From Gloeobacterales cyanobacterium ES-bin-313 (lineage in GTDB: Bacteria; Cyanobacteriota; Cyanobacteriia; Gloeobacterales; Gloeobacteraceae): a DNA stretch of 60,466 nucleotides. Both the position numbers and the translations under genes were made by a program. Below, piece by piece: positions 29,908-40,020 of the stretch. The notes under the pieces were generated by a model. It saw nothing but the letters and a program-made list of their open reading frames with translations, searched no databases and had not been told where the DNA came from. The first letter of the stretch is position 1, and every line of letters starts with the position of its first letter. The stretch spans positions 1 through 60,466 of the forward strand of contig JACMLN010000165.1 of the NCBI GenBank assembly GCA_014379585.1, written 5' to 3'.

Positions 29908-32900
29908 ATGCTCTCTGTTTACCCAGTCATGTTTTTTCGTCAAGAGACAACCTCTCTACAAGTGATTTTTAAGCAATTTTGCCTATCCCTTTTGCTTTGG
30001 TTTTGCTTCGCAAGTGCGATGTATGCAGAAGTTGCCTCTGAGCCGCTTCCCAGCAAACAAGAACTTCTTGGCGAGACAAAATGTGTCTACCAAGATCGTA
30101 TTGGCTTGATTTGGGTATGCACGAATGAAGGAATAAGCCGATATGACGGCTACACTTTTACAGACTACAAACTCAGTACTGGCGACGGGAAGCAGGGTTC
30201 CTACACAAGTACCAGCCGGATCTACGAAGATCGCTCAGGTAGACTCTGGCTTGCTTCTAAGAATGGTCTATGGCGCTTTGATCGAAGCACCCAAAAATTC
30301 ACCCATTTTGTCCATCATTCCTCAGTCGCGAGTAGCTTGAGCGGCAACAATATTTTCTCAATTATTGAAGACAAGCACGGTTCTCTTTGGGTTGGCACCG
30401 ACAGTGGGTTGAACCGCTTCGACCCGCGCACCGAGACTTTTACTCATTTCTTCCATCATCTCAATCAGCCAGAGAGCTTAGGCGGGGATTTCGTTTCAAC
30501 ACTCTGGGAAGATCATCTCGGTGTGCTGTGGATTGGTAGTACAGGTGGTCTCGATCGCTATGAGCCAACGCGCCAACAGTTCATCCACTATCCGAGCAGT
30601 ACCCCAGACAGTCCAAGTAGTAACTTAATTACTGCCCTCTACGAAGATCGCTCCGGAGCACTTTGGATCGGCACTGCCGATGCTGGCCTCAATCGCCTTG
30701 ACTCCAAACGCCAACACTTTAAACGCTATCAAGCTGATCCACTGAATGCAAAGTCGCTGAGCTACGACACAGTCCTGTCGATCTACGAGGATCACACAGG
30801 CAAGATCTGGGTGGGGACAGATCAAGGATTGAATCGCCTCGACGTGCAAACTCAGATTTTTTCACACTACAGTTTCAGTGCCTATCACAATATCTACGCA
30901 ATCGTGGAGGATCGATCCGGAATGCTCTGGATCGGTACGAACTCTGGACTGATTAAATTCGATCTCAAACCACCCAAATTTCAGCTCTATCGCCATCAAG
31001 AGGGAGAAACAAATAGCCTGCCTTACGATTTTCTTTGGGGGATTGGAGAAGATCGATCCGGTGCCATTTGGATCGCGAGTAATGGTGGTGGGCTATGCAA
31101 ATTTGATGGCAAAAAATTTACCTCCTACCGTCACGATCCCAAGAGGCCAGACAGCCTGAGTGATAACTTAGTCTTGAGCGTTTATATAGACCCTAGAGGG
31201 ACGCTCTGGGTTGGTACCCGTCGCCACGGCATGGATCGATTTGATCCGAAAAGCAATCGATTCACTCATTTTCAAAATAACCCAAACGATCCCAAAAGTT
31301 TGAGTGGTAGTGCTGTCACCTCAATGTATGAAGACCATCGTGGAAATTTCTGGGTGACCACGCGCCATGACGGTCTGAACCGCTTCGATCCGCAGACAGG
31401 CTCATTCATTCGCTACCAACATCATCCTGCTGATCCAAAGAGCATTATCAGCGACGCTATCCACTCGATCTACGAAGATCGCTTTGGGAACCTTTGGCTC
31501 GCGACAGAAAGTGGCCTAGACCGCTTTAATCCGGATACACAAACATTTACTCACTATCAACATAAAGCAGAAAAAAACGACACGATCAGCCATAACAATG
31601 TCCTAGGGCTCTCTGAAGATCGAGACGGCGTACTCTGGATTGCGACGGAGAAAGGACTCAACCAAATGAATCCGAAGACAGGGGCTTTCACGCATTACTT
31701 TGTAGAAGATGGATTGCCTAGCAATATTATCTACAAAATTGTCGATGATCAGCAAGGTAGTCTTTGGCTCTCAACCCAGAATGGGCTTTCCCGCCTCTCA
31801 TTGGCGACTAAGAAATTTCGTAATTATTTTGAAGTCGATGGGTTGCAAGATGACGAATTTAATTCTGGATCTGCATTTAGATCTTCCCGTGGGCAGCTTT
31901 ATTTTGGTGGCATTCATGGGTTGAATAGTTTTTATCCCGAGAAAGTTGTTGATTTTGCTTACATTCCTCCAGTCATTGTCTCCAGCTACAGAGTCAACAA
32001 TCAGCCTGAAAGTCTAGAACCCCCAATTTCAAGATCAGAACCATTGACTTTGGACGATAAGAATACTGTCATTTATTTCGAGTTTTCGGCTCTGGATTAC
32101 ACAGCACCCAATAGGAATAGGTATACCTACAAACTAGAAGGTTTTGATAATCAATGGATCGATCTTGGAAACCGACGAGATGTGACTTATACCAACTTGA
32201 ACCCAGGAACGTATCGGCTTCACTTGCGCGGGACTAACAGTGATGGCATCTGGAATCCCCAAGAGACAGTGCTCACCATCGTCGTTACACCACCCCCATG
32301 GAAATCGATTTGGGCTTATGGCTTGTATGCTTTAGGCATCATGGCCAGTTTCTTCGCCTTTACCCACCTGCGCGCTCGAACCCAAACACGCGAGATTGAA
32401 CGACAGCGGCAATTGAACGAGCGCCTAGAGTTCCTCGTCCAGCAGCGGACAACAGCGCTCATCGAAGCGACTGAGCAAGCCCAGCAAGCCAACCAGGCCA
32501 AGAGTCTCTTCCTCGCCAATATGAGTCACGAGATTCGTACACCCATGAACGGAATTCTTGGCATGACAGAGTTGCTGATCGACACTCCCCTCACAAAAGA
32601 ACAGCGCGAGTACGCAGAGACCGTGATGACCTCCAGCGAGCTGCTACTGGCCATCATCAACGACATTCTTGACTTCTCCAAAATCGAAGCGGGTAAACTC
32701 GATATCGCTTGTATTGACTTTTCACTCAAAAAAGTGGTGGCGGAGTGCTGTTTTTTGGGGGCTGATGCAGCCGCACGCAAACAACTCTCCTTTGCGTGTC
32801 ATGTTGCCTCCGATGTGCCTGAGCAGGTTCAGGGCGATCCTGTGAGGTTGCGCCAGATATTGATGAATTTAGTGAATAACGCCATCAAGTTCACCCACAC

Positions 32901-33231
32901 AGGCGAGATCATCGTCGAAATTACCCTTGCAAAAGTCGATGGCCAACAAGTGTTCATCCACTTCAAAGTTCGAGATACAGGGATTGGCATCTCGCCACAT
33001 ATTCAGACCCAACTTTTTCAATCTTTTCAGCAGGCAGATCCTTCCACAACCCGTACTTACGGCGGCACAGGTTTGGGTCTGGCGATTTGTCGGGAACTTG
33101 TGCAGTTGATGGCTGGCAACATTGGTGTACAGAGCGAACTTCAAAAAGGCTCGACATTTTGGTTTACCTTACCCTTTCTCACTGTCCTCCCAATTCTTTC
33201 TGGTGTTGGATCACAAGCGGACAAGCGTTAG
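29908..33231 (+). CDS. periplasmic-propeller sensor histidine kinase
   Basis: An 1107-residue kinase. A signal segment (about residues 1-44) precedes 14 two-component-regulator propeller repeats of the DRSGxLWIGTxxGLNRFD type (about 58-681), enough for two seven-bladed propellers. Then come a Y_Y_Y domain (about 685-796), one membrane helix (about 800-821), a coiled coil, the H box [15 protein letters not shown] with His874, and an ATPase domain with the boxes [20 protein letters not shown] and GGTGLGLAI. This is the body of a hybrid two-component system as known for glycan sensing in Bacteroides, but here there is no receiver or AraC domain at the end. Its partner regulator is not in the window. 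The trpC frame follows. Confidence 0.92.
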
Positions 33232-33284
33232 CGGGCAAGCAAGCACCCGTGCCAGAATATGTGGGCAATCTTGGCTGTAGTCCT

Positions 33285-34172
33285 GTGAAAGTTCGTCGTC
33301 GCCCTGACCAACCCCCTGTAGATGTCGGTCCTTTGCAGTTTCAGGTGCATGGGTCGGATCTAGAACCGCGCAATATTCTTGAAAAAATCGTTTGGGCGAA
33401 AGAAAAAGAAATTGAGGCCCGCCGCAACCAGTTACCTTTGGCGAAGTTACGGACACGGGTTGCTTCTGCGCCGCCTGTGCGGGATTTCTTGGGCAGTTTG
33501 CGCCGCTCTCCCCATCCCGTTGCCCTTATTGCCGAAGTGAAACGGGCTTCGCCTAGTCGTGGCATTATTCGCGAAGACTTCGATCCGGCTGCCCTTGCCC
33601 TTGCCTACGCGGCTGGGGGCGCTGATGTGCTCTCTGTGCTGACGGACAAACCTTTTTTTGGGGGCAGTTTTAGCGACCTCACCCTGGTACGAGAGGCTGT
33701 CGAATTGCCCGTGTTGTGCAAAGAATTTATCCTCAGTCCCTACCAGATCTACTTAGCCCGCGCCCATGGTGCCGATGCAATCTTGCTGATTGCTGCTATT
33801 CTGAGCGATACAGACCTCAATTACCTGCTGCGCATTACAGAACAGTTAGGAATGACGGCTCTCGTCGAAGTCCACGATTCCGAAGAGTTAGACCGCGTAC
33901 TGGCTATCGAAGGTGTGACATTGATCGGAATCAACAATCGAGACTTAACCACTTTTGACGTCAGTTTGCAGACGACCCGTGCCCTGATTGCTGAACGCGG
34001 GACGCAGTTAGTGCAGCGAGGGATTACAGTCGTCAGCGAATCGGGCATCTTTAGTCCAGCCGATCTGGCGACAGTCGGTGAAGCAGGAGCGCGGGCTGTG
34101 TTGGTTGGCGAATCGCTGCTCCGCCAGCCGGATGTTGCACAAGCGGTTATTTCACTGTTGGGGAAGCGTTGA
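33285..34172 (+). CDS. trpC: indole-3-glycerol phosphate synthase
   Basis: TrpC closes the indole ring in tryptophan synthesis. The frame is open further upstream, but the region before 33285 overlaps the kinase gene in another frame. GTG at 33285 gives [20 protein letters not shown], the N-terminal extension seen in cyanobacterial TrpC, and a normal length of 295 residues. TIM-barrel motifs are intact: [14 protein letters not shown] with the catalytic Lys, [24 protein letters not shown] with the second Lys and Glu, INNRDLTTF, and [12 protein letters not shown] near the end. The next gene starts in the TrpC stop codon (TGATG). Confidence 0.93.
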
Positions 34173-36447: not shown

Positions 36448-38139
36448 ATGCGGAATCGAAAGTACTTCGCTGTCCTGTTAACCGCCCTCTTCCTCGCTAG
36501 CTGTAGCAGCGACGCGCCTGCTGATTTTTCTGGTTTTCAAGTCGAACTGCGGGTCGGTAGTGCCCTGGGTGACTTCTGCAAAGCAGCCATTGCCAAATTC
36601 AACGCCCAAAGCCCAAAACTCGCCAATGGCCAGCCTTTTCAGGCGACCTGCAACCCTGAAGGCAGTGGGGATGTGGTGACATCGGTCACGACGCTTGCCA
36701 ATCAATTGAAGTCCGGAACGATCAAGGCCGACGATCCCCAATTTCCGACCTTGATCTCTGTAGACGGGGAGATCTATCAAAGCCAACTGATCTACCAAAT
36801 TGATCAGCTCTTCCCTGGCCAGAATTACATTCCGGCGATCACCGATGCACCACTGATCGCTAACAGTCCGATGGTCTTGATGGCGCAGCCCGATGTCGCG
36901 AAGGGACTGCAAAAAGTCGCGGATCCCTACAAGGCATTGGTCACTGCCAAGACCCACCAAGATATCGATCCGGCTGGCCCAGCCCTCACTGTTCACTACG
37001 TGCAAACGGCTCCAACCCGCTCTAACTCTGGCTTACAAACCCTGGTCGCTCAATTCGCTTCGGTTTCTGGCAAGCGGCCTGAAGACTTGAGCGTGGCGGA
37101 TGTGCAGCGCTATCAAGCTGATATCCAAAAAGTACAGAGCAAAGTGACCCGCTACGGCGCTTCAACAAATAGTCTGGCCAAGGCGATGGTCAAAAATGGT
37201 CCCTACTGGGCGACGGTCGGCTCGGTGTACGAATCTTCGGTGATCGCTGCCAATAGCACTCTGCCCACAGATCAGACCCGCTACCAGGCGGTCTATCCGA
37301 AGTCTACATTTTCTTCGAATATGCGAATAATTTTGCCCAATGCGCCCTGGGTGAGTGCAGACGAAAAAGCGGCAGCCAAGCAGATTATTGACTTTTTGCG
37401 CACACCTGAAACCCAGAAAATTGCTACTGAGCTGGGACTGCGCCCTGGTGTGCCTGGTGTGCCCCTCGGCGATAAATTTACGGCGGCCTACGGAGTGCTT
37501 CCCGAACCGAAGTACGATTCCTATCGGCCTCCTAGTCCGGCGGTGGTGAGTGCAATGCTCACCTCCTGGCTATCTTTCGCTAAGAAATCTTCCTTGGTGG
37601 TGGTTGTCGTCGATTCTTCTGGATCCATGGAAGGCGACAAGATTGCAGCGGTGCAGCGAACCTTGCAGACCTACGTCGATACCCTAGGGCCGAAAGATCA
37701 GATCGCCTTGATCGACTTTGACACCGAAATTCGCGAACCTGTGGTGATCGACGGCACCCCCCAAGGCCGTGCCAGGGGTCAACAATTCATCAGCAACCTC
37801 CAGGCAGAGGGGGGCACGCACCTCTACGATGCAGCGATATTTGCTCGCAACTGGCTGCGTGGTCATCTGCGCAAAGAGGCGATCAATGCAGTCTTGATCC
37901 TCACCGACGGCAACGACGAAGGCTCCGCTATTTCTTTGGAGGCCTTAGGGGAAGAACTGAAAAAGAGCGGATTCTCCACGGACGAACGGATTTCCTTTTT
38001 TACAGTCGGTTACGGCAATGACGGCGATTTTAATAAATCTGCCCTTACTCAGATTGCGGAATTGAACGGTGGGTACTTTGCCCCTGGCAATCCTGAAACA
38101 ATCAACCGCTTGATGGCGGATCTGCAAGTGGAGTTTTAG
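36448..38139 (+). CDS. lipoprotein with solute-binding and VWA domains
   Basis: A 563-residue protein with a lipoprotein signal (lipobox LASC, Cys19). Residues about 30-345 form a type 2 periplasmic binding-protein fold, with TAPTRSNSGLQTL at 188-200. Residues about 382-560 form a von Willebrand A domain with an intact MIDAS: DSSGS at 389-393, Thr457 in GGTHLYDA and Asp487 in LTDGND. A MIDAS metal site usually mediates protein-protein contact. No permease or ATPase gene is beside it, so it is unlikely to serve simple uptake. The partner gene starts 2 bases after the stop. AAGGGA precedes the ATG. Sensing or assembly at the cell surface is a guess. Confidence 0.85.
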   Translation: MRNRKYFAVLLTALFLASCSSDAPADFSGFQVELRVGSALGDFCKAAIAKFNAQSPKLANGQPFQATCNPEGSGDVVTSVTTLANQLKSGTIKADDPQFPTLISVDGEIYQSQLIYQIDQLFPGQNYIPAITDAPLIANSPMVLMAQPDVAKGLQKVADPYKALVTAKTHQDIDPAGPALTVHYVQTAPTRSNSGLQTLVAQFASVSGKRPEDLSVADVQRYQADIQKVQSKVTRYGASTNSLAKAMVKNGPYWATVGSVYESSVIAANSTLPTDQTRYQAVYPKSTFSSNMRIILPNAPWVSADEKAAAKQIIDFLRTPETQKIATELGLRPGVPGVPLGDKFTAAYGVLPEPKYDSYRPPSPAVVSAMLTSWLSFAKKSSLVVVVVDSSGSMEGDKIAAVQRTLQTYVDTLGPKDQIALIDFDTEIREPVVIDGTPQGRARGQQFISNLQAEGGTHLYDAAIFARNWLRGHLRKEAINAVLILTDGNDEGSAISLEALGEELKKSGFSTDERISFFTVGYGNDGDFNKSALTQIAELNGGYFAPGNPETINRLMADLQVEF

Positions 38140-38141
38140 CG

Positions 38142-39959
38142 ATGCGCTGGGTGAATCCTCTCTCCGCTCCCTTGGCAGTGTTTGCTGCTAGTGTGCTGTT
38201 ACTCCTTGGACTCCGCTTTCTCGATCTCTCGATCTGGATTGCCCTCCCTGTCGCCCTCGTTGTCGCTTTTGGCCTTGCTCCTTTTTTCCAGGCAAAACCA
38301 CCGACGGCCAATCCAGAACTGGCCAGGGAACTAGAGGCAGCCAAGCAACGCGCCTTGGAACTTTCTACGAAAGCGGACAGCTTCTACGCTGAGGCAACAA
38401 AACTACTCACTGCCCCCGGCCAAGTGGAAGCCTTAGGGATCGTTCAGTACGCCCGCAGTCGGGTGCAGGATTTGCCCACTCGCGTCGCCCAACTTGCGGA
38501 TCGCTTTGAAGGCAGCGGTTCATTGCTGGCTCTCGATGACCTGCGCGAACAATTGCAGGGTGTTGAAGCGAAGGCCAGTAAAAGTAGCGGGGTCGCCCGC
38601 ACCCAATTTGTCCAGTTGGCAGACAGCCTGCGGCGCAACATTCGCCTTGCCCAAGAAGGCCAAGATGCCCGAGTCGCCCAAGTCACAAGTCTGAATACGC
38701 TCATTTTGGATACCGCAGGCACTCTGCAGGCGATGCAGAACCGCCTGCGCACCACCGACCTTCCCCAAGTCAAAGAACTGCAATCCCTCGATGAACAGCT
38801 CACGGCATTTAGCGAAAGTGTCGATCTTCTCGTCGGCGATCCTGGCCTCGCCCCTGCCGCAAAAACGACCCAGGACAGGCGTAGCTTCTTGACCTCCCTC
38901 GGTATTGCTGGTGCAGCCGTTGCCCTGACGTTTGCCCCCATTCCTGGCACCCAGCGCACCCTGGTCATCGTCAGTGGTACCGAGTTGCAAGAACCGTTGC
39001 AGGCGTTAAAGATACAGTTTGAAAAAATTCACCCTGAACTACGCCTCGACCTGCAATTTCAAGGCTCCCAGGATATCGTCAATAAATTTATTGATGACAA
39101 AAACGACTTCAATCCGGCGGTGATCATTCCAGCCAACGGCCAGATCCTGAAGGAATTAGAAGCCCGTTGGCGTGCTCAGAATAGTAGCGACCCTTTCTAC
39201 AATGCTCCCAAGCCGATCACCAAAACCCTCCTCGTGGCCATCGCTTGGCCGGAGCGGGGGAAAGTGCTCTTTCCCGATGGTCGGTTTCGCTGGGATCGCC
39301 TCGAAGCCGCCCTGAAAGCAAAAAATTGGGCGAACTTCAGTGGAAACGCAAGCTGGGGCAGTTTCGACTTTGTGATCACGGATCCAACCCGATCCAACAG
39401 TGGCCAACTCACTCTCGGACTTTTTGCCCAATCCAAGTCGGGTAGTCTCAGTATCGCCACCCTCAACGATCAAAGTGCCAGTGACCTGATCGCTCTCGTC
39501 AAGCGCTCCGTCTACCAACCACCACGATCCACAGATGTTCTGCTCCAAGAATTTATTGCCCGTGGACCCAACGAAGCTGACATTGCCATAGTGTACGAGA
39601 GTATCGCCCTCCATCGGTGGTCTCAATCGACGACGACCCAAGGCAAGCCTTACCAGATCTACTACTTAGATCCAACCGTTGAAACCGTCTCCACTGCAGC
39701 GATTGTCCGTCGTAGTATCGATGAGCGCACTGCCCAATCCGCCCGTACTTTCCTCGATTTCTTGACTCAGAGTGAGCAGCAGGCGACCTTTGTGCGCTAC
39801 GGTTTTCGGCCTGTCAATGGCGATGTGCCCAACGTGTCGGATAGCCCCTGGCAAAAGAATATTCCCGGAGCAGAGTCAAAACTCAGCGTGCATACCCTCC
39901 CGATTTTCGAGCCTGAAATCTTGACAGAAATCAAACGCCTCTGGGAGCGCTCAAATTAG
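38142..39959 (+). CDS. membrane-anchored coiled-coil protein with a solute-binding domain
   Basis: A 605-residue protein in a tight operon with the VWA lipoprotein. Two hydrophobic segments lie at about residues 11-27 and 29-49. A charged helical region follows (about 57-235), then a third hydrophobic segment at about 249-265 preceded by DRRSFLTSLG, and a type 2 solute-binding domain from about 272 to the end. The solute-binding part has FQGSQDIVNKFID and ITDPTRSNSGQLTL (412-425), sharing PTRSNSG with the upstream protein. A reasonable topology puts the coiled coil in the cytoplasm and the binding domain in the periplasm. The RRSFL sequence resembles a twin-arginine signal at an unusual internal place. 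Function unknown. Confidence 0.8.
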   Translation: MRWVNPLSAPLAVFAASVLLLLGLRFLDLSIWIALPVALVVAFGLAPFFQAKPPTANPELARELEAAKQRALELSTKADSFYAEATKLLTAPGQVEALGIVQYARSRVQDLPTRVAQLADRFEGSGSLLALDDLREQLQGVEAKASKSSGVARTQFVQLADSLRRNIRLAQEGQDARVAQVTSLNTLILDTAGTLQAMQNRLRTTDLPQVKELQSLDEQLTAFSESVDLLVGDPGLAPAAKTTQDRRSFLTSLGIAGAAVALTFAPIPGTQRTLVIVSGTELQEPLQALKIQFEKIHPELRLDLQFQGSQDIVNKFIDDKNDFNPAVIIPANGQILKELEARWRAQNSSDPFYNAPKPITKTLLVAIAWPERGKVLFPDGRFRWDRLEAALKAKNWANFSGNASWGSFDFVITDPTRSNSGQLTLGLFAQSKSGSLSIATLNDQSASDLIALVKRSVYQPPRSTDVLLQEFIARGPNEADIAIVYESIALHRWSQSTTTQGKPYQIYYLDPTVETVSTAAIVRRSIDERTAQSARTFLDFLTQSEQQATFVRYGFRPVNGDVPNVSDSPWQKNIPGAESKLSVHTLPIFEPEILTEIKRLWERSN

Positions 39960-39980
39960 TCCCTGATGGCCAAGACCAAA

Positions 39981-40010
39981 GTTGGGGACACATCAGGCTG
40001 TGTCCCCAAC
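39981..40010. terminator. palindrome/terminator after the VWA/SBP operon
   Basis: Perfect 11-bp arms GTTGGGGACAC and GTGTCCCCAAC flank an 8-base loop. It lies 22 bases after the stop at 39959 and probably ends the transcript. There is no T-run, and it belongs by sequence to the same GGGGACA palindrome type as 49-74. Confidence 0.6.
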
Positions 40011-40020
40011 TACCCATACC

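Follow-up and report, generated by a model that had tools for sequence, protein, structure and literature searches.

A solute-binding/VWA lipoprotein and a fused membrane protein from a Gloeobacteraceae genome form a conserved module whose relatives adjoin xpaC and telA

The window analyzed here is a stretch of 60,466 nucleotides from Gloeobacterales cyanobacterium ES-bin-313 (contig JACMLN010000165.1). It contains two ORFs on the + strand, 36448..38139 and 38142..39959, whose coordinates are exact and which are separated by a gap of 2 bases (38139 to 38142). The first ORF encodes protein A, in which a solute-binding protein (SBP) domain is joined to a VWA domain. The second encodes protein BC, in which a membrane-anchored helical part (B) is followed by a second SBP part (C). 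The features of the locus are as follows.

36448..38139, + strand: gene A, an SBP–VWA lipoprotein of 563 aa (Pfam SBP_bac_8 and VWA; AlphaFold2 model)
36448..36504, + strand: predicted signal peptide and lipobox LASC of A, with Cys19 (motif; Cys19 invariant in 21 homologues)
36529..37527, + strand: SBP domain of A, residues 28-360, with pocket motifs GSGD, TRSNSG and YES (structural matches to sulfate-binding proteins)
37585..38130, + strand: VWA domain of A, residues 380-561 (Pfam VWA; structural matches)
37612..37626, + strand: MIDAS motif DSSGS, D389-S393 (no variation at D389, S391 and S393 in the 21 cyanobacterial or the 12 cross-phylum proteins)
37816..37818, + strand: MIDAS Thr457, invariant in the same two protein sets (21 cyanobacterial, 12 cross-phylum)
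37906..37908, + strand: MIDAS Asp487, invariant in the same two protein sets (21 cyanobacterial, 12 cross-phylum)
38142..39959, + strand: gene BC, a fused membrane/helical protein and SBP of 605 aa (one ORF that runs through the junction without a stop)
38169..38288, + strand: N-terminal transmembrane (TM) hairpin of B, residues 10-49 (predicted helices 10-26 and 31-49; hydropathy peak at 31-49)
38313..38834, + strand: helical bundle of B, residues 58-231, putatively cytoplasmic (predicted helices, pLDDT mostly 70-88)
38850..38942, + strand: third TM segment, in C, with twin-arginine flank DRRSFLTS, residues 237-267 (hydropathy; TAT_signal_seq score)
38949..39881, + strand: SBP domain of C, residues 270-580 (SBP_bac_11, E 1e-19)
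39980..40011, no strand assigned: perfect inverted repeat of 13 bp, located 20 bases past the stop codon of BC, a possible operon end

Pfam places an SBP_bac_8 domain at residues 46-347 of protein A (E 2e-23) and a VWA domain at residues 384-541 (E 9e-14), and the AlphaFold2 model of the protein is confident (mean pLDDT 87, pTM 0.81). The LASC motif marks A as a predicted lipoprotein. In structure searches with this model, the best matches of the SBP domain are sulfate-binding proteins (5um2, Z 26.5; 1sbp, Z 25.6), and the VWA domain matches inter-alpha-inhibitor heavy chain H4 (9c4f_I, Z 23.6, rmsd 1.9) and a bacterial VWA protein (4fx5, Z 22.5). Pocket residues S192, G195 and E262 of the SBP domain are kept in all 12 A proteins of the cross-phylum set, which covers Cyanobacteria, Actinomycetota, Pseudomonadota, Deinococcota and another class of the window's phylum. 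The VWA domain has every residue (DxSxS, Thr, Asp) by which a functional MIDAS is recognized in sequence. An earlier note on this DNA had read A as a lipoprotein joining a type 2 SBP to a VWA domain with an intact MIDAS (DSSGS, Thr457, Asp487), followed 2 bases downstream by a membrane-anchored helical protein ending in an SBP domain. The exact ORFs, the LASC motif, the Pfam calls (SBP_bac_8 and VWA in A, SBP_bac_11 in BC), the sulfate-binding-protein matches and the invariant MIDAS residues bear out this reading. A variant of gene A is found in Calothrix sp. PCC 7716 (L009:7644-11248), where it is split (residues 2-151 and 149-563) around an insertion-like ORF of 465 aa.

Within BC, the helical bundle of B lacks a significant Pfam match. 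The positive charges that follow the hairpin and precede the third TM segment suggest that the bundle is cytoplasmic. For the third segment, considered as a Tat export signal of C, TAT_signal_seq scores 16.9 bits on the C part alone, borderline against the cut-off of 16.7, and 14.7 on the whole BC protein; RRxF also occurs in the fusion proteins of genomes G369 and G371. The SBP_bac_11 match covers residues 274-556 (E 1e-19), and this domain weakly resembles models of the oxyanion SBPs ModA, WtpA, Sbp and PstS. A and C are homologous along the SBP region (hhalign 99%), and the pocket motifs GSxD, SNSG and YES are retained by both, so that C looks like an A devoid of its VWA domain. The BC model is poor across the SBP (mean pLDDT 59); its alignment used in-frame read-through rows of B and C, purely as a folding aid.

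Every cyanobacterium examined outside the window's family has B and C as ORFs of their own, B corresponding to the N-terminal 231 residues of BC. Within the family, G369 and G371, which belong to a second genus, encode BC as one uninterrupted ORF (60% identical), in each case 2 bases downstream of A. Since the fusion recurs in these two genomes, it is not an assembly error. They came from a search of the window's order (9 genomes), in which three other family members gave no match. The fusion is family-specific and most simply taken as derived, because B and C stay apart in the relatives G034 and G361 and in Pseudomonadota. Joining of B and C elsewhere by stop-codon readthrough was considered and rejected: the two share a frame in 12 of 20 loci, but 1-22 stops lie between them. 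That three genomes from two genera carry the two as a fusion implies that B and C are partners; it also suggests contacts between parts and, through the positive-inside rule, the membrane side on which each one lies.

Across the phylum, 292 genomes were sampled, and A, B and C occur together in one and the same set of 21, the window's genome included; complete copies of A have at least 52% identity. In these carriers, A, B and C are usually three adjacent genes. In two genomes of one genus (G085 and G241), they lie at three distant sites and all are kept. The pairwise distance matrices of the three proteins correlate (r 0.81-0.91), to which genome descent contributes and of which it may be the sole cause. 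Judged by these sequence comparisons, A, B and C make up a real conserved module. Conservation of the pair, which the earlier note had proposed to check, therefore holds for the parts; the unit, however, is A, B and C, and the two-gene form that had been described is the family-specific fusion. A description of this module was not found in the literature searched, although work on Ter-dependent stress systems may cover it.

In the window, the module is flanked by a divergent sodium:solute symporter (SSF), a HEAT-repeat protein and a sigma-70 factor, as had been noted before. Apart from A, B and C themselves, the loci compared have no widely shared neighbour, and the three window neighbours show no linkage to the module elsewhere except for one SSF-like gene in G371. 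Further upstream (29908-34172), an ORF for a Reg_prop/Y_Y_Y histidine kinase overlaps an indole-3-glycerol phosphate synthase ORF by 145 bases; the true start of the synthase probably lies further in than the called ORF. The half-site of the inverted repeat behind BC, GTTGGGGACACA, has no other exact occurrence in the window, and the repeat is a possible terminator, with no T run on the + strand.

The genes of an ABC importer, in which a permease and an ATPase are encoded with the SBP, are not found here. Among 27 loci, no ABC gene near A, B or C is conserved: an ABC ATPase occurs in two, at 1.2 and 4.7 kb from A and adjacent in neither, and the few permease queries used found no permease in any. 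Homologues of the pair are thus not regularly accompanied by a permease and an ATPase, and the earlier view that this is not an ABC uptake operon is supported for cyanobacteria. Uptake might still proceed through an ABC or secondary transporter encoded elsewhere, to which A and C would feed a solute. The structural neighbours, Sbp and ferric-binding proteins among them, are SBPs that serve transport, ABC parts are present in distant Vibrio TelA operons, and the window has its divergent symporter. That symporter, however, has no homologue in the other cyanobacterial loci of the neighbour comparison; G371 has an SSF-like neighbour of 31% identity about 1.3 kb from BC, and none was found in the stretch of G369 examined. 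In addition, two SBPs, a VWA domain and a helical bundle would be an unusual set for an importer. Together with the 27 loci, this makes uptake through an unlinked transporter improbable in our estimation. Relatives in several bacterial phyla retain these parts, in many cases next to the stress genes xpaC and telA, so that a role in sensing or stress is more probable for the module than one as a nutrient pump.

Both TelA and XpaC are stress proteins of wide occurrence, and their genes are found in envelope-stress regulons. In Bacillus subtilis, xpaC-yaaN belongs to the sigmaW regulon (PMC3498285), xpaC is part of the LiaR regulon in Enterococcus (PMC10269926), and a Listeria TelA mutant has raised sensitivity to nisin and tellurite (reported in PMC12791056). 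In G034, from another class of the phylum, the gene order is A, XpaC (PF10112, E 1e-26), C and TelA (PF05816, E 3e-115), and in G361 it is A, XpaC, C. Sphaerotilus, Variovorax and Nonomuraea have the order C-TelA-A-B, with a 2-TM protein in the B slot. In Deinococcus, C and A are accompanied by a 2-TM protein, and Thiodictyon combines A and C with a third protein. The protein that goes with A in Miltoncostaea and Streptomyces is hydrophobic at its N-terminus and otherwise rich in helices. Profile comparisons identify the A proteins of G034 and G361 as full-length SBP–VWA homologues of cyanobacterial A (hhalign probability 99.8-100) and their C proteins as VWA-less second SBPs matching cyanobacterial C (93-97); for C of Sphaerotilus, Deinococcus and Variovorax the probability is 97-98.

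An earlier hunch that TelA/XpaC co-occur with the pair is therefore right for G034, G361, Sphaerotilus, Variovorax and Nonomuraea, but not for the cyanobacterial carriers: Pfam models found no TelA (PF05816) in the 21 carrier genomes and no XpaC (PF10112) above the cut-off in 20 of them, and PF10112 is absent from the listed matches of 23 B proteins. Sequence homology of B to XpaC was also considered and is not established, with weak, collinear hmmsearch matches (E 0.05-0.13) and an hhalign probability under 6%. Since XpaC or 2-TM proteins adjoin A and C in the relatives, cyanobacterial B fills the slot of XpaC with a like outline, a match in position and topology only. In more distant TelA operons, on Vibrio plasmids (L124 and L125), the VWA protein is separate and is encoded with SBP/OmpA-type proteins as well as an ABC ATPase and a permease; the wider class may therefore have a link to transport.

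Other VWA genes were seen alongside. A second cyanobacterial VWA clade (L098, L101, L103, L120, L146), of about 590 aa and in some cases with an SBP domain, lies near band 7/prohibitin or CHAT genes, on plasmids; it was rejected as part of the A-B-C module. On a plasmid of Streptomyces sp. CdTB01 (L119:2487-7834), the gene for an nSTAND1 and WD40 protein (annotated as a trypsin-like peptidase) overlaps a VWA gene.

A role in defense or conflict, related to the ter/tel networks, would agree with the position of Curtobacterium TelA beside TerD genes and with the company that other VWA or SBP–VWA proteins keep with nSTAND1-WD40 and CHAT proteins. As neither A nor BC has a PADLOC match, and no other conserved gene surrounds A-B-C, we regard such a role as very unlikely.

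The reading that we prefer, and to which we give an even chance, is that A and BC form a trans-envelope sensing or stress-response complex that was ancestrally coupled to XpaC/TelA. We infer its topology, ligand class, VWA partner, signal direction and output as follows. The module would consist of the SBP–VWA lipoprotein A, a membrane protein with the helical bundle of B, and the membrane-anchored SBP C. A and C would each hold a solute outside the inner membrane, probably an oxyanion or similar small ligand, because the two share pocket motifs and C weakly resembles ModA, WtpA, Sbp and PstS. The MIDAS of A would make a metal-dependent contact, most simply with C, and the ligand state would alter this contact. 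The change would then pass via C and B to the cytoplasmic bundle of B, and in other lineages this bundle would act together with TelA. The complex would probably serve in sensing or withstanding envelope or toxic-anion stress, and not in uptake. A more specific form of this proposal is tentative and rather doubtful: a sensor with neither kinase nor ABC transporter, in which two oxyanion-type SBPs and a metal-gated VWA domain act on an XpaC-like membrane protein, and in which TelA, ancestrally the cytoplasmic output, has since been lost from cyanobacteria or replaced there.

A structural or assembly complex would explain the fusion and the co-occurrence just as well. VWA proteins often have assembly or scaffolding roles. 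Such roles in archaea have been reviewed (PMC5898192). In a complex for envelope assembly or metal insertion, the VWA domain would act as scaffold or chaperone in a metal-dependent way, with the SBP folds re-used to bind proteins; a stable complex of this kind suits the B-C fusion and the co-conservation. Yet both SBP domains keep their pocket motifs (GSxD, SNSG, YES), and no conserved neighbour would fit as a partner ATPase, which leaves this explanation unlikely, albeit the strongest of the alternatives. If instead, as in the sensing complex that we favor, the SBP–VWA proteins are the sensing half of TelA/XpaC, they would offer a testable route to the ligand and mode of action of these stress proteins.

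Several known systems share features with the module. Sbp and other type 2 SBPs have the same fold as the SBP domain of A; in A, however, this domain is fused to a VWA domain and is encoded without a permease or ATPase. In Corynebacterium GlnH-GlnX-PknG, a lipoprotein SBP is coupled to a membrane protein that passes the signal inwards, and GlnH-GlnX is a case in which an SBP lipoprotein signals via a membrane protein with no transport involved (PMC9769921). It serves as a working analogy only, since it has no VWA domain, no second SBP and a different membrane protein. The xpaC-yaaN (XpaC-TelA) pair of Bacillota encodes an XpaC with a 2-TM start and a helical domain next to TelA, with no SBP–VWA or SBP gene alongside in the records examined. 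Closest are the SBP–VWA/XpaC/SBP/TelA clusters (RefSeq 'substrate-binding and VWA domain-containing protein'), in which A and C are homologous to those described here, the order A-XpaC-C occurs in G034 and G361, and a 2-TM protein occupies the slot of B. Compared with these clusters, the cyanobacterial carriers have no detectable TelA and a B without an XpaC Pfam match, and in the window's family B and C are fused.
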